Shown here: piece by piece, positions 3,103 through 21,063 of the stretch | Layout: the number at the start of each line of letters is the position of its first letter | Numbering within the stretch: the first letter of the stretch is position 1 | DNA from: a virus | Virus record (IMG/VR): IMGVR_UViG_3300030101_001884 | Location: 1 to 24,476 of that record | Direction: 5' to 3' (one strand) | Length of the DNA stretch: 24,476 nt | Program-made: the position numbers and the translations under genes | Notes under the pieces: generated by a model | Seen by the model: the letters and a program-made list of their open reading frames with translations, nothing else | What the model was told of the DNA's origin: nothing | Databases searched by the model: none

Positions 3103-4007
3103 CAGAAGAAAAAGCAAAAGTAGGAAAAGATGAATATGATAATCCTGGAGAAGCAGGAGCAAGAGCAAAAGAAATAGGTTGCACAGGAATACACTCACAC
3201 AACACACCAAAAGGTAAAATATTTATGCCATGTAAGAATCACGATGATTACATGAACGCAATAGCAAAAAATAAAAACAAAGAAGAGGATTTACAAGACT
3301 TTGAAGATTTAACAAATCCAGAGTTGTTTGATGATTCTATAAATGTCAAAGGTCAAAGACAAGTATTTGAATGTGAAGTAAAAGCAACAAGTGAGCAAGA
3401 GGGAACTTTTGAAGGATATGCTTCTACTTTTAACAATATAGACAAAGGAAATGATATTGTTGTATCAGGTGCATTTAGAAAAAGTCTACGCAGAAGACCA
3501 TATCAAAAGGTTAAATTATTATATCAACATAGAACAGATGAACCAATAGGAGTCTTTGAGAGTATGAAAGAAGATGAGAATGGTTTATTTGTTAAAGGTA
3601 GATTAGCAATGGGCACACAAAAAGGAAGAGAATCGTATGAACTTCTAAAAATGGGTGCATTAGATGCTATGTCAATAGGTTTTAAAGCAGACCCAAAAAT
3701 GCAATCTTATGACGAAAGACGCAGAAGAAGGTATTTGAAGGAGATTGATTTAATGGAAGTATCCCTTGTGACTTTTCCTATGAATGATAAAGCTATTATT
3801 CATCAGGTAAAAGGAACGGACAGAACTATTCGTGAATGGGAGGATTTACTGCGAGATGCTGGAGATTTATCACGAGTAGATGCCAAGATAGGTGCAAAGG
3901 CACTTATTACAGCTCTGGAACAACGAGAGGTTGAAGACGACTATGGCGATGTCATCGAGAAAATAAAGAAAGTTAAACAATTAATTAAAGGAGATAGTAA
4001 TGACTGA
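3099..4007 (+). CDS. HK97-family prohead protease with an extra N-terminal Cys/His domain
   Basis: This is the capsid maturation serine protease, 302 residues. Residues about 88-240 carry the S78/U35 signature: GYASTFNNIDKGND (107-120), SGAFRKSL (123-130), the catalytic His in LLYQHRTDEPIG (H144), the catalytic Ser in MSIGF (S192), and E220 in EIDLMEVSLVTFPMN as the likely third residue. The C-terminal LLRDAGDLSRVDAK (250-263) is the usual regulatory tail. The unusual part is residues about 1-80, ahead of the protease, with GCTGIHSH (27-34) and MPCKNHDDY (43-51). The spaced Cys and His residues (C28, H32, H34, C45, H48) suggest a small metal-binding fold, which is inference. The start overlaps the previous stop (ATGA). 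It ends 8 bp inside the capsid gene, the expected protease-capsid pairing. Confidence 0.95.
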   Translation: MTEEKAKVGKDEYDNPGEAGARAKEIGCTGIHSHNTPKGKIFMPCKNHDDYMNAIAKNKNKEEDLQDFEDLTNPELFDDSINVKGQRQVFECEVKATSEQEGTFEGYASTFNNIDKGNDIVVSGAFRKSLRRRPYQKVKLLYQHRTDEPIGVFESMKEDENGLFVKGRLAMGTQKGRESYELLKMGALDAMSIGFKADPKMQSYDERRRRRYLKEIDLMEVSLVTFPMNDKAIIHQVKGTDRTIREWEDLLRDAGDLSRVDAKIGAKALITALEQREVEDDYGDVIEKIKKVKQLIKGDSND

Positions 4008-5226
4008 TATTTCAGAAGTAAAAGATGCTGTCTCAAGTCTTGGAACAACTTTTGAAGAGTTTAAAAAGACTAACGATGAGCGTCTAGCTCAGATTGAATC
4101 AGATGGTCATGCTGACCCATTGGTTGAGGAAAAACTTGGAAGAATTGAAAAAGATTTAGACAAGATTGAAGAAATCAACCAAGCAGTCACAAAAGGTCAT
4201 ATGGCTCAAGAAGAGCAAAAGGAAAAACTAGCTCAACTGGAAAAAGCAATCAACAGACCAACATCAAGTAAAGACGAGAGCAATGCTCAAGATGAGCAAA
4301 AAAGGGCTTTCGATAATTACTTGCGTAAAGGTAAAGATGCTTGTGACCCAGAAGAGTTAAAAGTTTTGACTGCTTCAACTGACACAGCTGGAGGATATTT
4401 GGCTCCACCAGAGTATGTCCGTGAACTTACCAAAACTATATTAGAAATTTCACCAATTAGAAGTATAGCAAGAGTTAGAACAACTACTAACAGGTCTGTA
4501 CAAATACCAGAAAGGACTGGTTCCTTCTCAGCAGTTTTCGTTGCTGAACAAGGCACTCGTTCTGAAACAACTGGTTATGCTACAGGAATGAGAGAAATTC
4601 CAACTCATGAACTATATGCTTTAGTAGATATTTCAGAGCAAGAACTTGAAGACTCAGTTTTCAATATGGAGCAAGAAATGTCACTAGAATTTGGTGAACA
4701 ATTCGCAAAAGCTGAAGGAACTTCATTTGTAAGTGGAAATGCTGTAGGTAAACCAGAAGGATTCTTAACCAACTCAGAAGTTGGTACAGTTAATTCTGGC
4801 TCTGGCACAACACTAACAGCTGATGGTCTTATCAGTTTGTACCACGAACCAAAAGCAGAATATGCAGCAAATGGAACATTTGTATTTTCTAGAAGCACTC
4901 TAGCAGTGATTAGAAAACTTAAAACATCTAGCAATGACTATGTTTTCCAAGCAGGAAATCAATTAGCAGGTGGTATGGTTTCTACTATTCTAGGAGCACC
5001 ATATGTTCAAGCAACAGATATGCCTGCAGTTGGAAGTAGTGCAAAACCAGTCGCTTTTGGCGATTTTAGAAGAGGTTACATGATTGTTGATAGAGTAAAC
5101 TTGGCTATCTTAAGAGACCCATTCACTCAAGCAACATCAGGTAATGTTCGCTATATCGCTAGAAAAAGAATTGGTGGACAGGTAATTTTACCAGAAGCAA
5201 TTAAAACTCAAACAGTAAGTGCATAA
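4000..5226 (+). CDS. Major capsid protein, HK97 fold
   Basis: This 408-residue protein forms the icosahedral shell. Residues about 1-100 are Glu/Lys/Gln-rich and predicted coiled coil, matching the scaffold-like delta domain of HK97-type capsids that is removed by the prohead protease. The mature fold follows with LTASTDTAGGYLAPPEYV (123-140), the P-domain segment SFSAVFVAEQGTRSETTG, and a C-terminal stretch ending IGGQVILPEAIKTQTVSA. The cleavage point probably lies between about 90 and 123; I cannot fix it. AAAGGAGAT sits 5-6 nt before the ATG. The start lies 8 bp inside the protease gene, which suggests coupled translation. Asp is written GAC only where a C follows, for example in HADPL and CDPEE. 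Confidence 0.96.
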   Translation: MTDISEVKDAVSSLGTTFEEFKKTNDERLAQIESDGHADPLVEEKLGRIEKDLDKIEEINQAVTKGHMAQEEQKEKLAQLEKAINRPTSSKDESNAQDEQKRAFDNYLRKGKDACDPEELKVLTASTDTAGGYLAPPEYVRELTKTILEISPIRSIARVRTTTNRSVQIPERTGSFSAVFVAEQGTRSETTGYATGMREIPTHELYALVDISEQELEDSVFNMEQEMSLEFGEQFAKAEGTSFVSGNAVGKPEGFLTNSEVGTVNSGSGTTLTADGLISLYHEPKAEYAANGTFVFSRSTLAVIRKLKTSSNDYVFQAGNQLAGGMVSTILGAPYVQATDMPAVGSSAKPVAFGDFRRGYMIVDRVNLAILRDPFTQATSGNVRYIARKRIGGQVILPEAIKTQTVSA

Positions 5227-5237
5227 GGAGATTAACA

Positions 5238-5669
5238 ATGGAAGATTTAAAAAATAATATCGGAGTTGTTCAATCACTAGCACCAGCTGCAAGAGATGCA
5301 GATGCTAATGGCACAGGAGTAGATTTACAAGGTTTTGAATCTGCTACTATTGTTATTGACATGGGTGCTGAAGGAATAACTCTTTCAACAACAAATAAGA
5401 TAGAGATTGAATTAGAACATTCTGATGACGATGCTACTTATACTGATGTCACATCAAGCAGTGATGTAATCGGTGCAACACCAGATTCAAATGGAGTAAT
5501 AGCTACATTTGATGCTAATGGGGAAGCACCTGCGATTGCTGCAGTTGGATACATCGGTGGTAAGAGATACATCAGAGCAGTTGCTAACTTCTCTGGAACA
5601 CATGGTACTGCGACACCTCTCGCTGTTTCTATTATTAAGGGACATGCAAGAAAAAATCCTGTATCATAG
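5238..5669 (+). CDS. Probable capsid decoration / head protein of unknown function
   Basis: This 143-residue protein follows the capsid gene after 11 bp with its own Shine-Dalgarno (AAGGAG). It opens MEDLKNNIGVVQSLAPAARD and has a Gly/Ala/Thr-rich, beta-predicted body (VDLQGFESATIVIDMG about 29-44; KRYIRAVANFSGTHG about 108-122). I recognise this opening and pattern from uncharacterised proteins encoded directly behind major capsid genes in many tailed phages. The position and beta-rich acidic composition suit a decoration or cement protein, but no member I know of is proven, so that role is inference. The gene is followed by a strong hairpin that may separate its transcript from downstream genes. 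Confidence 0.6.
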   Translation: MEDLKNNIGVVQSLAPAARDADANGTGVDLQGFESATIVIDMGAEGITLSTTNKIEIELEHSDDDATYTDVTSSSDVIGATPDSNGVIATFDANGEAPAIAAVGYIGGKRYIRAVANFSGTHGTATPLAVSIIKGHARKNPVS

Positions 5670-5682
5670 TTTGTAAAAAATA

Positions 5683-5708
5683 GCGATTGGGACAAATGTC
5701 CCAATCGC
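5683..5708. terminator. Perfect 12-bp hairpin after the capsid block (terminator-like or RNA-processing element)
   Basis: GCGATTGGGACA (5683-5694) is followed by AA and its exact reverse complement ending at 5708. This is by far the most GC-rich, most stable stem noticed in the window. On the + strand no U-run follows (ACTAAATTGG), so it does not look like a classical intrinsic terminator in the direction of the genes. On the - strand the stem is followed by TATTTTTTAC, which would be a better terminator, yet no - strand gene is present. A role in stabilising the 3' end of the abundant capsid mRNA or attenuating downstream expression is plausible. Confidence 0.6.
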
Positions 5709-5725
5709 ACTAAATTGGAGTGATA

Positions 5726-5962
5726 ATGGAAATAAAAATGTTAGTTAGTTGTAATGGTTCTGCTAATCCTGAAGGAAGTGTATCTATGGTATATAAAAAA
5801 GATGAGATATATCATATGAATGCAGATTGGCAACAAAAATTAGCTAATTCCTTAATACAGGATAACTTAGCTATGGAAGTAAAATCTGATGACATGGAAG
5901 TGAAAGCTGAAGTGAAAAAAGAAAAACCAAAAGCAACTAAGAAAACTAAAACTAAAAAATAA
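5726..5962 (+). CDS. Small head-module protein of unknown function
   Basis: This is a 78-residue protein. The ATG at 5726 is preferred over the GTG at 5720, because TTGGAG (5715-5720) then sits 5 nt upstream as the Shine-Dalgarno. Residues 1-55 form a short mixed alpha/beta unit (MEIKMLVSCNGSANPEG, then YKKDEIYHMNADWQQKL). This resembles the many small proteins near phage capsid genes with a 'strand, flexible loop, keep-or-replace residue' pattern. Residues about 56-78 are a Lys-rich tail (KKEKPKATKKTKTKK), a low-complexity basic end that could contact DNA or simply be disordered. It ends immediately before the ATG of the next gene. Function is unknown. Confidence 0.6.
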   Translation: MEIKMLVSCNGSANPEGSVSMVYKKDEIYHMNADWQQKLANSLIQDNLAMEVKSDDMEVKAEVKKEKPKATKKTKTKK

Positions 5963-6331
5963 ATGAGTAGTGCAGGATTACATAATTTTATCTGTGACCA
6001 AGGAGCAACTTTCCTTAAAACAATAACATTCTTTGCTAGTGATGGTACAACAGCAATAGACTTAACAGGTTATGCTTGCAGAATGAAAATTAAGGAAGAG
6101 TATGGTGGTACAGTTATAAAAAGTTTGACTAACAGTAGTGGTATGACTATTGGTGGTGGAGCAGGTAATCCAACTAATGGAGAAATAGACATAACCATAA
6201 GTGCAACTGACACAACTAATTTTTCAGCACCACAGACAGCAGTTTATGATATTGAAATAATTAGCAGTGGTGGTATTGTACATAGAATTTTACAAGGTAA
6301 ATTTATTGTAAACCCAGAGGTAACAGATTAA
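5963..6331 (+). CDS. Beta-rich virion protein related to BppU-N-type / fibre adaptor proteins
   Basis: This 122-residue protein starts on the base after the previous stop. It has the pattern of a widespread phage family: an opening with QGATFLKTITF (14-24), LTGYACRMKIK (about 34-44), then NGEIDITISATDT and a C-terminal YDIEIISSGGIVHRILQG followed by VNPEVT. I recall these features from small proteins encoded next to tail-fibre or neck genes in marine phages, some matched to the baseplate upper protein N-terminal domain. A role as adaptor between virion and fibre is inference. It overlaps the next gene by one base (TAATG). Confidence 0.62.
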   Translation: MSSAGLHNFICDQGATFLKTITFFASDGTTAIDLTGYACRMKIKEEYGGTVIKSLTNSSGMTIGGGAGNPTNGEIDITISATDTTNFSAPQTAVYDIEIISSGGIVHRILQGKFIVNPEVTD

Positions 6332-6555
6332 TGGCAAATCAAAGAAACACAGTACAAGTAACTGATGCTGGTGTAGTCAAAGTAGTTTCTGTTGGAATAC
6401 AAGGACCAGCAGGAAGCAGTGCCTTTCTTGGTGCTCCAATAGACCAAGATGCTACTGCTTCAGGTAATGAGATATTGCAATACAAAGCTACACCAGATGA
6501 ATGGCAAGGTGTAACATCATTAGATGGTATAACTATTGATGCAGGCACTTATTAA
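6331..6555 (+). CDS. Short collagen-like / fibre-associated protein
   Basis: This 74-residue protein has a valine-rich beta opening (VQVTDAGVVKVVSVGIQGP), a single collagen-like GPAG turn near residue 25, and a segment GNEILQYKATPDEWQG (45-60) of the kind repeated in phage fibre proteins where trimeric repeats begin. It looks like a small fibre or fibre-adaptor subunit. The Thr-Tyr ending is abrupt, so it may be a remnant of a longer fibre N-terminus. The start overlaps the upstream stop (TAATG), and a Shine-Dalgarno for the next gene follows. Function is inferred from composition and neighbours only. Confidence 0.5.
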   Translation: MANQRNTVQVTDAGVVKVVSVGIQGPAGSSAFLGAPIDQDATASGNEILQYKATPDEWQGVTSLDGITIDAGTY

Positions 6556-6578
6556 TTAATATTAGGAGATAGTTAGAG

Positions 6579-7715
6579 ATGGCAAACACAATTAAGATAA
6601 AAAGAAACACAGGCTCTACTGCACCAACTACATCTAATATATCACAAGGTGAATTAGCGATATCAGAATCTAATAAAATTCTTTTCTATCGTGATGCTAG
6701 TGATAACATATTAAAAATAGGTGGTGAGGGTGCATTTTTAAGGTCTGATGAATCTGATACTATAAATGGTAATTTAACAGTAACAGGAAACTTAACAGTT
6801 TCAGGAGATTCAGTAACACAAAATGTTGCAACAATGTCTGTTGAAGACCCAATTATAGAATTAGCAAATGGTAACACTTCTTCAGATTCTGTGGATATAG
6901 GTCTTTATGGAACTTATGATACAAGTGGTTCACAAGATTTATTTACAGGATTTTTTAGAGATGCTAGTGATGCAAAATGGAAATTATTTAAAGACTCACA
7001 AACAGAACCAACTACAACTGTAAACACAAGTGCAACAGGATATAGTGTAGCAACATTAGTAGCAAACATTGAAGGAAACTTAGCTGGTTCTCCTACAATA
7101 ACTGCAGCAACTGTTGCAACATCATTAGATATGAATGGTACTGAATTAATTTTAGATGCAGATGCAGATTCATCTATAACAGCTGATACAGATGACCAAA
7201 TAGATATTAAGGTTGCAGGTGCAGACCAACTTTCAATATTAGATGGTAGTATACAACCAGCAGTAGATGATGATGTTGATTTAGGTGCTTCAGGTAAAAA
7301 ATTTAAAGACTTATTTATAGATGGTACAGCACATTTGGATGCAGGTAATGTAAATGGCTCAGCAATTTTAAATATTGGTGATGCACAAACAGTAACAGGT
7401 GTAAAAACTTTAACTGTACCTATACTTGCTGATAATACCGATGCTACTAAAAAAGCAACTTTTGCAATGAGTGGTATAAGTGGAAGTACAACTAGAACAT
7501 TTACTTTACCAGATGCCAATACAACAGTTGTTGGAACTGATACAACACAAACTTTAACTGGTAAAACATTAACCACACCTACAATAGCTAAAATTAAAGG
7601 TGGTGGTACTAATACTAATGGTCACGTTGTACCTAATTTAGCTGATGATACTTTCGCTTTATTAAATGCTACACAAACATTAACTAATAAAACATTAGAC
7701 TCTGGAACATTTTAG
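6579..7715 (+). CDS. Tail-fibre-like structural protein
   Basis: This 378-residue low-complexity, beta-repeat protein is rich in Thr, Ser, Asp, Asn and Gly. The N-terminal module IKIKRNTGSTAPTTSN (5-20) with GELAIS and ILFYRDASDNILKIGG is shared with the fibre gene at 8186, suggesting a common virion-attachment unit. A region with NGNLTVTGNLTVSGDS (63-78) and MSVEDPIIELANGNT (86-100) follows; I know this from marine phage fibres. The last third holds repeats of the T-L-T-(G/N)-K-T-L type, ending LTNKTLDSGTF. The sharp end inside such repeats hints at a truncated fibre or one whose receptor-binding part is encoded separately. The Shine-Dalgarno AGGAGAT lies 8 nt before the ATG. Confidence 0.75.
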   Translation: MANTIKIKRNTGSTAPTTSNISQGELAISESNKILFYRDASDNILKIGGEGAFLRSDESDTINGNLTVTGNLTVSGDSVTQNVATMSVEDPIIELANGNTSSDSVDIGLYGTYDTSGSQDLFTGFFRDASDAKWKLFKDSQTEPTTTVNTSATGYSVATLVANIEGNLAGSPTITAATVATSLDMNGTELILDADADSSITADTDDQIDIKVAGADQLSILDGSIQPAVDDDVDLGASGKKFKDLFIDGTAHLDAGNVNGSAILNIGDAQTVTGVKTLTVPILADNTDATKKATFAMSGISGSTTRTFTLPDANTTVVGTDTTQTLTGKTLTTPTIAKIKGGGTNTNGHVVPNLADDTFALLNATQTLTNKTLDSGTF

Positions 7716-7740
7716 AGTTTAAAAGTTTTAGGAGAATAAT

Positions 7741-8217
7741 ATGACAGAGAAAGAAACTGTTAAGATAGATTATAAACAAGAAGTAGTTTATAAGAATGCA
7801 GAGTTAAGAGTTAGTAATGCAAAAGTTGGTGAATATGTCAGTAAACTAATGGATGCTGAAACTAAAAATCTTCTTTTAACAGAAGAAAATATTAAACTTA
7901 AAAATAAATTAGAAGAGTTTGATATGTTAAAAGAAGATTTAGATGAAAAAAATAAAATTGTTCATTCTAATGGAACAAATGTTCAAGCACTAAGAGATAA
8001 AATTAAAAATATGAAAAAACAACATAGTGAAGAATTAGAACATCATGGTAAAATTATAGATGAATTACAAAGAAAAAATGGTAGCTTACAAAGAGAGGTT
8101 GATTCTCTTTATGCAGAACTTGGTAAAGAAGTTAATGAGTTAAAAAAAGAACAAGCTACTCAACAAAATAAGTTAAAGGTTATAGATGTCAAACACGATA
8201 ACAATAAAAAGAAATAG
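7741..8217 (+). CDS. Coiled-coil protein between fibre genes
   Basis: This 158-residue protein is almost wholly charged and helical, with long runs of E/K/L/I in heptad-like spacing (for example LTEENIKLKNKLEEFDMLKE, about 46-65; ELQRKNGSLQREVDSLYAEL, about 108-127). It has no Cys, signal peptide or membrane segment. It sits between two fibre genes that share N-terminal modules, and its last 32 bp overlap the second one. It could be a fibre shaft, a trimerisation factor or a fibre-assembly chaperone; the sequence does not choose between these. AGGAG lies 6 nt before the ATG. Confidence 0.6.
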   Translation: MTEKETVKIDYKQEVVYKNAELRVSNAKVGEYVSKLMDAETKNLLLTEENIKLKNKLEEFDMLKEDLDEKNKIVHSNGTNVQALRDKIKNMKKQHSEELEHHGKIIDELQRKNGSLQREVDSLYAELGKEVNELKKEQATQQNKLKVIDVKHDNNKKK

Positions 8218-9493
8218 CTCTTCTGGTAATGCACCAAGTGCATCTGACTTAACAACAGGAGAACTAGCTGTTAATACAGCTGATGCTAAATTATTTGTTA
8301 AACATAGTGATGGTAGTGTAAAAGATATAACAGTAGCTGAATCACTAACGACAGCTAGAACTAAAGCAGAGGATTACAAATCTCCTTGGGGTAGCTCATC
8401 ATCACCAATAACATTTACTGTTAAAGTAGCTAGTAAAACTTCTGCACATCCATACACAGGAGTAGGTTCTAGTAATGCTTACTTTATAGATGATATTGAA
8501 GCACCAGTCCTACAATTTGATGGGGTAGATACAGGTAAAACATATTATTATAAATTTGACCAGTCAGATGCTACTAATGATGGACACCCACTAAGATTTT
8601 ATACAAAAGCAGATAAAACGACAGCTTATACAACTAATGTCACAACCAGTGGCACTCCTGGAACAAGTGGTGCACACACAACAATACAAGTAGATGAATA
8701 CACACCAAATATTTTATATTACCAATGTAGTAGTCATGCACATATGGGAAATCATTCCTTACATATTGGCTCTAACATGTTTAACAGTAATGGAGTTTTG
8801 TTTAAGCTACCAACAGCAGATGGTTCATCAGGACAGATAATGGCAACCAATGGCTCTGGAGTTTTGAGCTTTATTGCTGCAGCAGGAGATTTGCCAACTA
8901 TAACAGGAATTAGCCCAAGTGCTATAGGTAATACAGCAACTAATATTGTTATAACAGGAACAAATTTTGTAATTACACCGAATGTAGAATTTATTAACTC
9001 GTCAGGAGTTATAACTTTACCAAATAGTATTACAAGAGACTCAGCAACACAGCTTACAGTAAATGCGACTTTGTCTACTGATGGGACTTATTTTATTAGA
9101 GTTGAGAATCCTGATGGTGGAGCTGGTCGTAGCTCATCAGCATTGCTTACAGTATCAGACGCACCAACATGGAGTACATCAGCTGGAAGTCTAGGAGAAG
9201 TTGCAGCTGGAGCATCAGTATCTTTAGATGTAGATGCTTCATCAGACTCAACAGTAGCATTTAGTGAAACCACAAGTGTGCTAACCAGTAATACTGACAC
9301 ACCTGCAAGTACCATGAATTTAACACTTAACTCATCGACTGGGGCTATTACAGGAACAGCACCTAGTCCCACAGGCGATACAACATATAACTTTACTCTA
9401 CGAGCTACAGATGCAGAGAGTCAAACAGCCGACAGGGCATTTAGTATAACCATATCAGTAGGAATGAACAATTCAGGACAATTCAATGACTAG
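8186..9493 (+). CDS. Modular adhesin/fibre protein: cupredoxin-like, IPT/TIG and Ig-like domains
   Basis: This 435-residue protein has an N-terminal attachment-like module ITIKRNSSSGNAPSASD with GELAVN (5-29) that matches the fibre gene at 6579. Residues about 75-197 look like a cupredoxin fold with candidate copper ligands: H134 in GHPLRF, C181 and H184 in YYQCSSH, and M187. The same region has AHPYTGVGSSNAYFID (87-102), which I know from marine phage virion proteins. Residues 236-327 form an IPT/TIG domain (ITGISPSAIGNTATNIVITG), and 328-426 an Ig/cadherin-like domain (SSTGAITGTAP, then YNFTLRATDAESQTADRAF). The start lies inside the coiled-coil gene (AAAGGT 5 nt upstream), supported by the conserved N-terminus. 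The C-terminal GQFND appears to continue in the +1 frame as the next ORF. Confidence 0.8.
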   Translation: MSNTITIKRNSSSGNAPSASDLTTGELAVNTADAKLFVKHSDGSVKDITVAESLTTARTKAEDYKSPWGSSSSPITFTVKVASKTSAHPYTGVGSSNAYFIDDIEAPVLQFDGVDTGKTYYYKFDQSDATNDGHPLRFYTKADKTTAYTTNVTTSGTPGTSGAHTTIQVDEYTPNILYYQCSSHAHMGNHSLHIGSNMFNSNGVLFKLPTADGSSGQIMATNGSGVLSFIAAAGDLPTITGISPSAIGNTATNIVITGTNFVITPNVEFINSSGVITLPNSITRDSATQLTVNATLSTDGTYFIRVENPDGGAGRSSSALLTVSDAPTWSTSAGSLGEVAAGASVSLDVDASSDSTVAFSETTSVLTSNTDTPASTMNLTLNSSTGAITGTAPSPTGDTTYNFTLRATDAESQTADRAFSITISVGMNNSGQFND

Positions 9494-10892
9494 TAGTTTA
9501 GCAAGAGATTTTACAGCAACACCAACAAATGCTAAAAAGTTTACAGTTTCTTTTTGGCTAAAGATAACTAAATTTACATCTAATCAAATAATTATGTGTA
9601 ACTATGGTAATAGTGGTAATGATGATTTTCAAATACAATTAAGGAATGACGACACTATAGGTGTATTGGATTATAAAGGTGCTAGTGTAAGCAGTAATCA
9701 TGAAACAACAAGAAAATTTCAAGATTGTAACTCTTGGTATCACATTGTAATAGCTGGAGATTCAACACAAAGCACAGCATCTGATAGATTAAAACTATAT
9801 GTTAATGGAGTACAAGAAACTTCATTTGCTAGTGCAACAAACATAGGGCAGAACAATGATTATAATTGGAATAAAGAAACTGCTGGAACATCATTAGGTC
9901 ATATCATAGGCAAAAGTGGTGCTGGTAGTAACATATTTCAAGGTTATCTAGCACACATACACAATGTTGATGGTACAGCTTATGCTCCAACAACATTTGG
10001 AGAAACAGATAGCACCACAGGAGAATGGAAACCAATCCTTAATCCATCAGTTACTTATGGCAACAATGGGTGGTTTTTGAAGTTTGAGAATAGTGGAGCC
10101 ATGGGTACAGATAGTAGTGGCAATAGTGCTACCTTTACAGTAAGTGGAGATTTAAAACAATCTATATCAACTCCTAGTAATACGTTTGCTCATTTTAGTT
10201 TTCATCATAGTGGTGTTGGTCAGCAAAATGTTATAAGCCATGCTGGTACGCAAATAGACCATGCTAATGATAGCTATAATATGAAAATAACTTGTGCGAC
10301 ATTAGCTATGAATAAAGGTAAATGGTATTGGGAAACTAAATACTCAACTACAGGTGGTTACTTATATGTAGGATTTGCTAGGAATGGAGGTTTAGATGCT
10401 ACTAGAAATATAAGACAGAACAAAGGACTTGGAGATGGAGATGATGCTAACTCATGGTCCTTTGCTGCTGGTAATTCATCTGGACAAATAATTAAAAAAA
10501 TTAGACATAACAATGGAGATTCTGTCGCAGACATGGGAGTTACACCAGCAGTCAATGACATTATACAATGTTGGTTAGATTTAGATAATGGTAAAGCATG
10601 GTGGGGTATCAATGGTACTGTTATGAATAGTGGTAGTGGTACAGGTGTTCCTAATTCTGGCACATATCCTCATGTTACCTTTACTGTTGGAGATGAATTT
10701 TATTTCCCAGCAGTATCTTTATTTGGATTTAATGGTGCACCTCAATGTCAAGTAAACTTTGGTGAGGGAAGATTTGGAACAACAGCAGTATCATCGTCAG
10801 TCGCAGATGCAGCTGGTTTAGGTTCATTTGAATATAGTCCATTAGCTGGATTCTATTCAATATGTACTAAAAATATTAAAGATTATGGATAG
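9486..10892 (+). CDS. LamG/concanavalin-like and SPRY-like adhesin segment
   Basis: This 468-residue, probably receptor- or glycan-binding virion protein has two lectin-like parts. Residues about 5-180 are LamG-like: KKFTVSFWLKI (17-27), SWYHIVIAGD (83-92), RLKLYVNGVQ (101-110) and the signature YLAHIHNVDGTAYAPTTFGE (154-173). Residues about 278-430 are SPRY-like: KGKWYWETKY (277-286), YLYVGFARNG (292-301), IIQCWLDLDNGKAWWGINGT (359-378) and FPAVSLFG. The ATG overlaps the previous gene by 8 bp, with AGGAC upstream. No separate beginning of the LamG domain is seen; the usual FND-type first strand is in the upstream frame, so this may be the second part of a split protein. It ends at a TAG that is in frame with the next ORF. 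Confidence 0.78.
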   Translation: MTSSLARDFTATPTNAKKFTVSFWLKITKFTSNQIIMCNYGNSGNDDFQIQLRNDDTIGVLDYKGASVSSNHETTRKFQDCNSWYHIVIAGDSTQSTASDRLKLYVNGVQETSFASATNIGQNNDYNWNKETAGTSLGHIIGKSGAGSNIFQGYLAHIHNVDGTAYAPTTFGETDSTTGEWKPILNPSVTYGNNGWFLKFENSGAMGTDSSGNSATFTVSGDLKQSISTPSNTFAHFSFHHSGVGQQNVISHAGTQIDHANDSYNMKITCATLAMNKGKWYWETKYSTTGGYLYVGFARNGGLDATRNIRQNKGLGDGDDANSWSFAAGNSSGQIIKKIRHNNGDSVADMGVTPAVNDIIQCWLDLDNGKAWWGINGTVMNSGSGTGVPNSGTYPHVTFTVGDEFYFPAVSLFGFNGAPQCQVNFGEGRFGTTAVSSSVADAAGLGSFEYSPLAGFYSICTKNIKDYG

Positions 10893-10901
10893 GAGAATAA
10901 C

Positions 10902-11963
10902 ATGGCATATACAACAATAGCAAAACCATCAGTACATTTTGATGTACCTACATGGGCTGGAAGTAGTAGCACAACAACAGTTAGTGGCATGGGTTTTAAA
11001 CCTGATGCTATTTGGTTAAAAAGATATGATGGTACAGGGCATCCGAGATTTAATAACTCAACACAAGGTATTAATGTTAATTGGGTTCCAAGTGGACAAA
11101 ATGCAAATGACTCTACAGCTTATATAGCAAGTTATACATCAGACGGATTTACACTAACAGGTGGTGGTACAGATGCTAATGAGAATGGCGAAAAATATAT
11201 GGCAGCATGTTTTAAAGCAAATGGTGGAACAACATCATCTAATTCTGATGGAAGTATTACAAGCACAGTACAAGCAAATACTACAGGTGGTGTATCTATC
11301 GTTCAATATACAGGCACAGGAAGTAATGCAACAGTAGGACATGGGCTAGGTGCTGCACCTAAAGTTATTATAACTAAACCTAAAACACTATCTGATTTTG
11401 GGGCTTTTGGTTTAGGTAGCACAATTTATGTATCAGACCCATGGACTGATTACATAGAGATAGCAAATAATAGTGGCACGATTACTGATAATGTTGTGTT
11501 TTGGAATGACACAGCACCTACAACAAGTGTTTATAGTGTTGGAACTTTTGACCATGTAAACAAAGCTAGTACAGAAATAATAGCTTATTGCTTTGCTGAG
11601 AAAAAAGGTTTTAGTAAATTTGGATTTTACAAAGGTAATGGCAATGCTAGTGGTCCACAAATATTTTGTGGTTTTAAACCTAAGTTAGTGTTTCTTAAAA
11701 AAACAGAAAGCACAGAAAATTGGATATTTAAAACAACAGCAGTAGATGAAGGACAACTAGCTGGTACAGGAGAAATGAAAAGAACCATGAAAATTAATGA
11801 TAACTCATCAAGCACAAACTGTACTATCAATGCAAATGCTACAGGATTTAGACCAACAACAACAGACGGCAAAGCTAATGGAGATGACGCCATATATTTA
11901 TACATGGCTTTTGCAGAACATTCAATAGTAGGAACTAACGGAACAGTAGCACTAGCAATATAG
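10902..11963 (+). CDS. Repeat-containing adhesin segment (GFKPD-x-x-W-x-K type)
   Basis: This 353-residue protein is built of three related modules, each with the motif G-x-x-P-x-x-I/V-x-x-K: GFKPDAIWLKR (31-41), GAAPKVIITKP (150-160) and GFKPKLVFLKK (257-267). Each is followed by a segment ending near YMAACF, IIAYCFAE or IYLYMAFAE. This repeat type is common in large adhesins of marine phages, where it normally follows LamG/SPRY domains in the same chain. Here it is a separate ORF. A good Shine-Dalgarno, AGGAG (10891-10895), overlaps the upstream stop, 6 nt before the ATG. The reading frame is the same as the upstream ORF with only TAG-GAG-AAT-AAC between them. Attachment function is inferred from the family. 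Confidence 0.72.
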   Translation: MAYTTIAKPSVHFDVPTWAGSSSTTTVSGMGFKPDAIWLKRYDGTGHPRFNNSTQGINVNWVPSGQNANDSTAYIASYTSDGFTLTGGGTDANENGEKYMAACFKANGGTTSSNSDGSITSTVQANTTGGVSIVQYTGTGSNATVGHGLGAAPKVIITKPKTLSDFGAFGLGSTIYVSDPWTDYIEIANNSGTITDNVVFWNDTAPTTSVYSVGTFDHVNKASTEIIAYCFAEKKGFSKFGFYKGNGNASGPQIFCGFKPKLVFLKKTESTENWIFKTTAVDEGQLAGTGEMKRTMKINDNSSSTNCTINANATGFRPTTTDGKANGDDAIYLYMAFAEHSIVGTNGTVALAI

Positions 11964-11980
11964 GAGAGATAAGTGTAATT

Positions 11981-13960
11981 ATGAGTATTTTAGACAATAT
12001 AAAAAATATTTTTAAAAGCAAAAACAAAACTGTTTATCAAACCAAACAGTCTCCTATTGCTATGTTAAGTAATGTTTATGCAACAGGTCAAAAATATTCA
12101 TATGATGATTTAGTTAAAGAGGGTTATGAAAATAATGCTATTGCTTATAGGTGCATTAATGAAATATCACAAGGTGCATCTGGAGTAAGACTAAAGTTAT
12201 TTAGAGGAAAAATTAATGTAGAAGAACATCCTTTATTAGATTTATTAAATAGACCATCTCCAACTAGAAGTTATAATGAATTATTTGAGTCTGTTTATTC
12301 ATATCTTTTGCTTTCTGGTAATAGTTATATTGTAGCATCTAGTGTTGAAGATGTACCAGCAGAGTTATACTGTTTAAGACCAGATAGAATGAGAGTTATT
12401 TCTGGTAAATCTATGCATATACCATCCTCTTATGAATATGAAACAGGTAAAGAAACTTATATGAAATATCCTGTTGACCAAAATACAGGTAATTCTGCAG
12501 TTAAACATTTCAAATTATTTCATCCACAAAGTGATTTTATAGGTATGTCTCCTCTAGTTTCTGCAGCAAGTAATATTGATAGTCATAATCTAACTAATTT
12601 GCATAATGTTTCTTTATTACAAAATGGTGCTAGACCAAGTGGTGCAGTAGTATTTAAACCTAAAGATGAAACAGGAACTAGTGTTCAATTAAGCGATTCT
12701 CAAAGAGCACAAATATTAAAAGACATGGAGCAAAGATTTTCAGGTAGTAAGAATGCAGGTAGACCAATGTTACTAGAAGGAGATTTTTCCTTTCAACAAA
12801 TGGGTATGTCTCCTAAAGATATGGACTTTTCTGTTCTTAAAAAAATGTCAGCTATTGATATAGCATTATGTTTTGGTGTACCAGCACAGTTAGTTGGTAT
12901 TCCTGATGCACAAACTTATAACAATATGCCTGAAGCAAGACTTGCATTATATGAAGAAACTATTATACCTATACTAAGAAGAGTAGAATCTGATTTAAAT
13001 GAGTGGCTAACACCTAAGTTTGCAGATGATTTAAGATTGGAATATGATATTGATAGCATACCAGCTATGGCTGAAAGTAGAAAAAGAGTTTTTGAGTCTG
13101 TTATATCTGGAGTTAATGCAGGAATACTTACTAGGAATGAAGCAAGAGAAAAACTAGGATTTGACCCAATAGCTGGAGGAGATACATTATTTGTACCAGC
13201 AACTTCTATGCCTATATCCTTAGTAGGAGAAAGTATAGGAGATGATGAGGATGAAAAAAGTTTAGAGATAACAGAGGATTATCCAGAAGACATAGATGAA
13301 AAAGCATTAAGTGATATTGATTTTACACCAACAGATTCAATGGCAACTGAAGCAAAAAGAGGATTAAATTGGAGAAAAGAATTTGGTCGTGGTGGTACAC
13401 AAGTTGGTTTGGCTAGAGCCAATCAAATAGTTAATAAAGAAAATTTATCACCAAGCACAGTTAAAAGAATGTTTAGTTTCTTTTCTAGACATGAAGTAGA
13501 TAAAAGAGCAGAAGGATTTAGACAGGGAGAAAAAGGTTATCCATCAAATGGAAGAATAGCATGGGCTCTTTGGGGTGGTGATGCAGGATTTAGTTGGTCA
13601 ACTAAAAAACGTAATCAAATAGAAAGAGAATTAGAAAAAAGAGATGAAGAAGTTGAAAATCAAAAACAATTAACTGAAGCAGTAAAGAATGGTTTAAAAA
13701 ACAAAGTAAAAGAACACAATGAGAAACATGGTGATAAGAAAGGTAAAAAGGTTACACTAAGAATGTTAGGTGCAGTTTTTAGAAGAGGCATAGGTGCTTA
13801 TAGAACAAATCCTCAATCAGTTAGACCGAATGTTAGGTCTGAAGAACAATGGGCTTATGCTCGTGTAAATGCTTTCCTTTTTGCTGTAAGGACAGGTAGA
13901 TTTAGGTCTGGTCAGTTTGATAGAGATTTATTACCATCTGGGCACCCATTAAAAAAATGA
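11981..13960 (+). CDS. Portal protein (HK97 type) with two extra C-terminal domains
   Basis: The dodecameric portal is the DNA entry channel and connector platform. Residues about 1-415 match the Phage_portal family: YENNAIAYRCINEISQGASG (49-68), HPLLDLLNRPSPTRSYNELF (83-102), LLSGNSYIV (110-118), the FHPQSDFIGMSPL stretch (about 180-192), KKMSAIDIALCFGVPAQLVG (287-306) and GILTRNEAREKLGFDPIAGG (381-400). An acidic linker (421-450) leads to domain A (about 451-545: AKRGLNWRKEFGRGGTQVGL, then RHEVDKRAEGF and GRIAWALWGGDAG). A charged helix follows, then domain B (about 590-659: RRGIGAYRTNP and EEQWAYARVNAFL, ending DLLPSGHPLKK). At 659 residues it is over 200 longer than typical. A and B resemble uncharacterised phage domains. 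The gene lies unusually far downstream of terL. Confidence 0.93.
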   Translation: MSILDNIKNIFKSKNKTVYQTKQSPIAMLSNVYATGQKYSYDDLVKEGYENNAIAYRCINEISQGASGVRLKLFRGKINVEEHPLLDLLNRPSPTRSYNELFESVYSYLLLSGNSYIVASSVEDVPAELYCLRPDRMRVISGKSMHIPSSYEYETGKETYMKYPVDQNTGNSAVKHFKLFHPQSDFIGMSPLVSAASNIDSHNLTNLHNVSLLQNGARPSGAVVFKPKDETGTSVQLSDSQRAQILKDMEQRFSGSKNAGRPMLLEGDFSFQQMGMSPKDMDFSVLKKMSAIDIALCFGVPAQLVGIPDAQTYNNMPEARLALYEETIIPILRRVESDLNEWLTPKFADDLRLEYDIDSIPAMAESRKRVFESVISGVNAGILTRNEAREKLGFDPIAGGDTLFVPATSMPISLVGESIGDDEDEKSLEITEDYPEDIDEKALSDIDFTPTDSMATEAKRGLNWRKEFGRGGTQVGLARANQIVNKENLSPSTVKRMFSFFSRHEVDKRAEGFRQGEKGYPSNGRIAWALWGGDAGFSWSTKKRNQIERELEKRDEEVENQKQLTEAVKNGLKNKVKEHNEKHGDKKGKKVTLRMLGAVFRRGIGAYRTNPQSVRPNVRSEEQWAYARVNAFLFAVRTGRFRSGQFDRDLLPSGHPLKK

Positions 13961-20051: not shown

Positions 20052-20617
20052 TGTCTAGGGATTTACATAGTAATTTCACAACAGAACTAGCAACAAATAA
20101 TATAAAACCAATCCTTGCTGCAAAATTTGAATTTGCTACTGTAACAATAAGGTTATGGACAGGTTATGGTGATATAACTATAAATTCAGAAATTTATAAA
20201 GGAATAGGAACACTTGGCTCTTTAGGAAATGTAGAAGAAACTGCACAAACTAAAGCTGTAAGTCAAGATTTTATATTATCAGGAATACCAAGTAAATATA
20301 TACATTTAGCTTTAATAGATAATTATAGTGGTAGAGATGCAACATTATTTTTTGGTTTACTTGATGAGAGCGATGCTGTAATAAGTAATGTTGTAACTTT
20401 ATTTAAAGGGATTATAGATGTTATAACTGTAACAGAGTCTGGGGAAACTTCCACAATAAGATTAAGAGCAGAAAGTAGACTTGTACAGCTAGAAAGAAGC
20501 ATTGAAAGAAGATATACAAGCCAACAACAAAAACTAGATTTTTCTGGAGATTTAGGTTTAGATTTAATAGAAGAATTAATTGACAGAGATATAGTATGGG
20601 AAACTCCAACATCGTAA
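20051..20617 (+). CDS. Tail hub-associated protein (DUF2163-like)
   Basis: The frame is open from a TTG at 20033, but the ATG at 20051, overlapping the previous TAA, gives a 188-residue protein beginning MSRDLHSNFTTELATNNIKP, which fits the family start. Typical elements are LAAKFEFATVTIRLWTGYGD (22-41), a Y-K-G-I/A-G-T/S-L-G turn (residues 49-57 YKGIGTLGS), VEETAQTKAVSQDFILSGIP and a late TIRLRAESRLVQLERSIERR followed by RYTSQQQKLDFSGDLGLD. These proteins lie between the distal tail and J-like genes and are thought to be tail-tip/hub components. The last 22 bp overlap the GNAT gene. Confidence 0.72.
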   Translation: MSRDLHSNFTTELATNNIKPILAAKFEFATVTIRLWTGYGDITINSEIYKGIGTLGSLGNVEETAQTKAVSQDFILSGIPSKYIHLALIDNYSGRDATLFFGLLDESDAVISNVVTLFKGIIDVITVTESGETSTIRLRAESRLVQLERSIERRYTSQQQKLDFSGDLGLDLIEELIDRDIVWETPTS

Positions 20618-21063
20618 TAAGAGAATTTGAATTAAATGATATAGAAACTTTAGTTAAGTTAGGTAAGAAGATGCACTCTGAAGGAGAATATTCTTTTTTA
20701 CCATACTCTAAACAAAAGTGCAGAGATTTAGGTAAGAAAATAAAACTAATAGACAATGCTAACATATGGGTTGCTGAAGTTGATGGGAAAGTAATAGGTA
20801 TGTATATTGCAATAGTAACAGAATACTTTTTTAATTATGAAAAAATAGCTCAAGATTATTTACTTTATATAGACAAAGAATATAGAAAAGATATAAAAAT
20901 ACCTATTAGATTAGTAAAGAAAGCTGAAGCATGGGCTAGAGAACAAGGAGCAAAAGAGTTTTGTCCAGGAAGTAGTATGAACTTTTCTAGTGGTAAATTA
21001 GAAAAATTTTATAATTTTATGAAATTCAAAACAGTCGGTCATTTATTTAAAAAGAGATTATAA
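20596..21063 (+). CDS. GNAT-family N-acetyltransferase inside the tail-tip cluster
   Basis: This 155-residue protein has the GNAT shape. IVIREFELNDIETLVKLGKK (6-25) is the usual first strand-helix, WVAEVDGKVIGMYIA (about 57-71) the central strands, and DYLLYIDKEYRKDIKIPIRL (87-106) occupies the acetyl-CoA loop position, where the R/Q-x-x-G-x-G/A consensus is degenerate. KKAEAWAREQGAKEF follows (108-122). The substrate is unknown. Similar acetyltransferases occur among tail genes of marine phages, where a virion or wall-related target has been suggested but not shown. It overlaps the hub gene by 22 bp and abuts the J-like gene by TAATG, so it is co-translated with tail-tip genes. Confidence 0.7.
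   Translation: MGNSNIVIREFELNDIETLVKLGKKMHSEGEYSFLPYSKQKCRDLGKKIKLIDNANIWVAEVDGKVIGMYIAIVTEYFFNYEKIAQDYLLYIDKEYRKDIKIPIRLVKKAEAWAREQGAKEFCPGSSMNFSSGKLEKFYNFMKFKTVGHLFKKRL

Follow-up and report, generated by a model that had tools for sequence, protein, structure and literature searches.

Among blue copper proteins, the familiar kinds are electron carriers and domains of oxidases. The domain described here lies in the predicted product of a virus gene, on the 24,476-base virus record that we analysed as a whole and call the window. Plastocyanin and pseudoazurin (PF00127) share its ligand order and predicted fold, but their spacing from Cys to Met is longer. Rusticyanin, which Foldseek ranks first against the window model, is soluble, serves in respiration and has a longer ligand loop. 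Amicyanin has the same C-x2-H-x2-M ligand loop as the window, the loop CTPHPFM named in the title of PDB entry 2vmj being that of amicyanin, and it is found among the Foldseek matches of the model of an archaeal homologue, L185, at 10-15% identity. We do not claim membership of the amicyanin family; in the window the first His has Pro after it, the loop His has Ser before it, and the domain is part of a multi-domain virion protein. The N-terminal cupredoxin domain of the Hyphomicrobium copper nitrite reductase, which is the top VIA-align match (Z 8.9 for the window, 9.3 for L185), is fused to an enzyme, whereas that of the window is fused to a virion fibre.

Metal on a phage fibre has been considered before: the iron-binding HxH tail fibres of the T4 gp37 type likewise place a metal site on a fibre, with a different motif, and HxH iron in phage tails is the nearest published idea (PMC11705849). 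Borgs reportedly encode cupredoxins, in a metabolic context (PMC9605863). No cupredoxin was reported in a phage structural protein in the part of the open-access literature that was searched, and the window domain is named a cupredoxin by no Pfam or NCBIfam model reached and by no PHROG description. The cupredoxin fold and the type-1 site are already well known; the apparent novelty lies in the family and in where it occurs.

The fibre gene and its surroundings

The window encodes a terminase, head protease, major head protein and portal, together with a major tail protein, tape measure, distal tail protein and J-like fibre, a gene set that identifies a siphovirus-like phage. The domain is encoded on the plus strand by a single open frame of 435 residues (8186-9493), which has a match across residues 26-392 to the 'tail fiber protein' PHROG, phrog_30742 (E 1.1e-38); that PHROG has the same domain (E 1.4e-39), and its description is silent on fold and copper. 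The first 50 or so residues (8186-8335, plus strand) are of a type common to the ORF at 6579, with phrog_29752 matching residues 1-49 of the former and 1-47 of the latter, and they are probably a virion anchor. The cupredoxin-like domain follows at residues 73-195 (8402-8770, plus strand), as defined by AlphaFold, Foldseek and VIA-align with limits taken from the family; the preliminary description had placed such a domain at about residues 75-197, and the single domain found agrees with this in position and in predicted fold. Farther along is a putative Ig domain, He_PIG (PF05345, E 1.5e-7, above cut-off; residues 338-424, 9197-9457, plus strand).

Within the domain and on the same strand lie the four proposed copper ligands: H134 (8585-8587), the first, in DGHPLRF; and C181 (8726-8728), the thiolate ligand, H184 (8735-8737), the second His, and M187 (8744-8746), the axial ligand, all in YYQCSSHAHMGNH with C-x2-H-x2-M spacing. 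A residue index check of the 435-residue product found these four, and H186, at the positions first given for them. The AHPYTGVGSSNAYFID motif (residues 87-102, 8444-8491, plus strand) is kept mainly among nearer relatives and is altered or absent in distant family members.

The ORF belongs to a fibre-like cluster (6579-11963) that sits between the genes for the major head protein and the portal (4000-13960), so that head fibres are possible instead of tail fibres; its product is likely an adhesin. It shares 8 bases (9486-9493) with the next ORF (9486-10892), which lies in the +1 frame and carries LamG and SPRY domains. The frames of the cupredoxin and LamG/SPRY ORFs also differ in two other loci (L028 and L009) and are the same in a third (L014). 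Adjoining the fibre genes is a gene for a DUF7483 protein (10902-11963; PF24299, E 6.7e-75), and among the tail genes is a 155-residue ORF (20596-21063) that looks GNAT acetyltransferase-like by eye.

Predicted fold and relationship to known cupredoxins

The AlphaFold model of residues 67-206 (pLDDT 88.2, pTM 0.82) is a Greek-key beta-barrel of the cupredoxin type, as is that of L185 (pLDDT 93.9), a predicted archaeal lipoprotein. In the window model C181 ends the penultimate strand (110-115 in model numbering), the loop preceding strand 123-127 holds H184 and M187, and H134 stands just before strand 70-73; in order and secondary structure the arrangement is that of a type-1 site, His-Cys-His-Met with the latter three on the loop that leads to the final strand. 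Convergence of the four residues, set at the outset as a test, is addressed indirectly by this predicted fold and by their places in it. Searched against the PDB with Foldseek, the window model has rusticyanin as each of its best eight matches (E 2.4e-4 to 1.2e-3), followed among the best 50 by copper nitrite reductases, laccases and related oxidases; query TM-scores across the best 50 are low to modest (0.27-0.47). Only one of these 50, 7sqc, is clearly unrelated; coagulation factors V and VIII and SufI, also present, we take to be cupredoxin folds.

VIA-align gave copper proteins throughout its best 50 matches to the window model, headed by 2dv6 (Z 8.9, 104 residues aligned at 4.3 A), although just 1 of 998 chains reached Z 8, below which, by the tool's own warning, a score can be generic. 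That doubt is answered by the strong matches of the L185 model, for which 73 of 998 chains have Z of 8 or more; Foldseek returns 26 matches to it at E of 0.001 or below, amicyanin and plastocyanin included, with non-copper proteins in 4 of the best 50. The rusticyanin alignments of both models stop seven residues past the Met on either side (Met148 of rusticyanin, according to the entry titles), and thus fit Met on Met. On these models the window domain is almost certainly a cupredoxin fold. A search of BFVD with the window model also brought up 'beta-sandwich' proteins of giant viruses (Pithovirus LCPAC302 and LCPAC304, Marseillevirus LCMAC201 and LCMAC202) at E 1e-8 to 2e-6.

Sequence profiles were searched as well, as had been proposed at the outset. 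A profile of divergent members (A5) finds pseudoazurin 3tu6 first in the PDB (E 0.0018), then plastocyanins (E 0.049-0.085), with antibody chains mixed in from E 0.095; the alignments with plastocyanins bring the first His (agHplrf against ppHnilF), the Cys and the loop His (YyC..H) into register, and that with pseudoazurin covers the loop region only. Pseudoazurin is also the top PDB match of two other profiles, A1 (E 0.26) and A2 (E 0.042), and a single-sequence PDB search returned only noise. The Pfam model, on the other hand, did not reach its gathering score of 21.2 bits: PF00127 has no match to the window domain, matches 4 of 89 members (best E 0.056) and, among divergent members, matches 5 of 27, the best at E 0.0027, or 18.5 bits. 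NCBIfam has nothing for the window domain, and its plastocyanin model TIGR02656 matches 2 of the 89 members (best E 0.094).

Compared by hhalign with plastocyanins and pseudoazurins from marine genomes and plasmids, profiles A3 and A4 score 38.1 and 38.6, against about 12 for reversed profiles. In these alignments the Cys and loop His match and the first His is displaced by a small gap. The maximum over 100 column shuffles of A3 was 18.0; for A4, 98 of 100 shuffles scored 14.1 or less, and the two near 131 (maximum 131.9) align just 4-6 columns at the template end and are an edge artefact. Judged from these profiles, the family is likely related to cupredoxins by homology, not by analogy alone. 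A further model, PF25489 (At5g54830-like domain), gives the window domain 15.6 bits, short of its gathering score of 27 bits, and weakly matches 38 of the 89 members, at E 0.00075 for the best; a search for it in seven genomes and in 14 controls gave no match. The plant gene At5g54830 appears in the available part of PMC10784544 in a mutant list only.

Conservation and loss of the ligand set

Among 49 aligned representatives at 70% redundancy, the H134 column holds His in 44, the C181 column Cys in 44 (1 gap), the H184 column His in 46 (1 gap) and the M187 column Met in 44 (3 gaps), and in an alignment of 15 divergent members these four are among 14 invariant columns. With conservation of this order the set is not a chance one, and the earlier proposal of a full type-1 ligand set is upheld. 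So is its remark that the spacing from Cys to Met is shorter than in plastocyanin; the spacing equals that of the type-1 loop of 2vmj. By comparison H88, in the AHPYTG motif, is partially conserved (His in 22 of 49, 12 gaps).

The preliminary description had named H186 as a candidate ligand too, and this we have dropped, since His occupies that column in 2 of the 49 representatives. The same count bears on the suggestion that the site holds another ion (Zn, Ni or Fe), after the 'Trojan horse' idea of iron in phage tails. The window does have H184-A-H186, and HxH iron sites have been described in T4 gp37 and suggested for the tail fibre of a marine Alteromonas phage (PMC11705849). As an HxH iron site, however, this pair is unconserved and was rejected, and what is conserved is two His, a Cys and a Met in a predicted cupredoxin fold; we consider a site for another ion very unlikely.

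Ligand conservation in homologues had been set beforehand as a test, and its outcome favours the copper-site reading. The set HCHM is found in 157 of 167 distinct aligned copies from 192 loci, the other ten being four with loop gaps, two KDH-, and one each of HNNY, VCHM, HCHQ and NSAM. In a wider, realigned set that includes isolate phages, it is found in 177 of 193 distinct copies; this set omits the control cupredoxins (L192-L205), a copy of the window (L080), matches of 45 residues or fewer, and overlapping duplicates. Three of the remaining 16 copies are cut by contig ends, two have three ligands (HCHQ and VCHM), none has exactly two, and 11 have one at most. Gln, it may be added, is the natural axial ligand of stellacyanin.

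Cys is absent from all 11 degenerate copies. The sole ligand left is the first His in L216 and in the first copy of L181, the loop His, despite loss of the Cys, in L076, L077 and L214, and the Met in L184 and L188; L210 and L212 keep none, and L208 and L215 have a His near the first-His position whose placement at the column is not clear. The loops of L188, L208, L210, L212 and L215, which the aligner had gapped, were read by eye. These 11 copies are distinct and not all independent, the pairs L076/L077, L208/L215 and L210/L212 being alike.

For nine of the 11 (L181, L184, L188, L076, L077, L210, L212, L215 and L208), an intact copy lies in the same open frame. Six such frames (L210, L212, L208, L215, L076 and L077) are cyanophage structural proteins with an intact and a ligand-less copy each. 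A Prochlorococcus single-cell contig (L181, 3393-9062) has an open frame of 1,890 residues in which the domain occurs four times, once each as HCHM (on the alignment), HCHQ, VCHM and HNNY.

Because ligand-less copies persist, the fold can serve without metal. The domain could be a metal-free module in which the four residues are retained for their part in packing or in hydrogen bonds, and no virion ever carries copper; the persistence of ligand-less copies in the family, and their presence beside intact ones in the same frame in nine cases, would fit such a role, and fibre genes commonly reuse beta-sandwich modules. What is conserved, however, is exactly the type-1 set, and 44 of the 45 Cys found across the 49 aligned domains fall in one column. 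Nor do the ligands go singly; they are lost nearly all at once, as for a cofactor site. Read from the alignments, the ligands stay together or go together, a bimodal pattern of the kind expected of a cofactor site, and we regard a wholly metal-free module as unlikely.

A probable copper site at the virion surface

The site that we propose instead, a type-1 copper site, departs in its neighbouring residues from those of known systems. The first His has Pro after it in 39 of the 49 representatives, and the loop His has Asn, Ser or Ala before it in 38, with no Pro at that position among the residue types that cover 46; the seven plastocyanin-type proteins compared have HN at the first His and C-x-P-H in the loop. 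The residue after the first His normally gives a backbone hydrogen bond to the Cys sulphur, and Pro would remove that bond; the site may therefore not be standard, and with altered hydrogen bonds to the sulphur its colour and potential may be unusual. This also weighs on the idea that the virion site is redox-active, swapping electrons with the host envelope or scavenging oxidants. The closest relatives in fold and sequence are indeed electron-transfer proteins and domains of oxidases and reductases, but the Pro suggests an unusual site, and we know of no phage fibre that acts as a redox carrier; a redox function seems to us quite unlikely.

A surface setting is indicated by the PHROG tail fibre match and by the relatives, which occur in fibre, baseplate and gp9-connector genes and in predicted lipoproteins. 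A tblastn search with the window domain reaches 22 of the 50,697 phage records; with a divergent member from cyanophage S-TIM66 it reaches 359, and with the archaeal member 317. The names of 357 of the 359 begin with Synechococcus, Cyanophage, Prochlorococcus, Pelagibacter, Methylophilales or Marine, and those of the other two with 'phage' and 'uncultured'. Annotations of the genes under the matches listed include hypothetical and virion structural proteins, tail fibre, baseplate wedge and the gp9 tail-fibre connector; one connector (L215) has a T4 gp9/10 N-terminal domain and a cupredoxin-like domain near its C-terminus. IMG/VR holds 69 close loci and, among 600 candidate stretches, at least 552 relatives.

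On contigs of prokaryote genomes 31 loci match, of which some look cellular and others phage-like. One (L161) has fibre-like and internal virion-like genes around it, by eye. Three others, L185 (3797-4804) and L183 (4059-5324), both of marine Euryarchaeota, and L186 (4767-5303; SAR86), have, again by eye, lipoprotein-type signal sequences and look cellular; the L185 predicted lipoprotein also has a collagen repeat.

We suggest that the ORF encodes a virion-surface fibre protein in which a short N-terminal region is followed by a cupredoxin domain holding the intact type-1 set His134-Cys181-His184-Met187 on a loop of amicyanin length. Each domain would bind a single copper ion, presumably picked up outside the reducing cytoplasm, in the host periplasm, the lysate or seawater. 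The bound copper might then clamp the ligand loop and the two beta-sheets into a rigid module, which could be used in fibre architecture or in host attachment. As a whole, the reading as a cupredoxin on the virion surface whose type-1 copper site is intact is probably right, and the domain is probably competent to bind copper. On whether the copper has a stabilising or attachment role we are evenly divided. The earlier thought that the domain senses or binds copper of the host surface is speculation.

A broader proposal is possible and is offered tentatively: that the fibres, baseplates and gp9 connectors of many marine phages (cyanophages, pelagiphages and Methylophilales phages) carry copper-loaded type-1 cupredoxins that act in attachment or in redox contact with the envelope, and that virions are a copper ligand in seawater. 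The copper idea is directly testable with isolates already in culture. If it is true, a type-1 cofactor would have been found in a new biological setting, the surface proteins of abundant ocean phages; something would be learned about proteins now annotated merely as tail fibre, baseplate or hypothetical; and virus particles may bind seawater copper, as has been proposed for iron.
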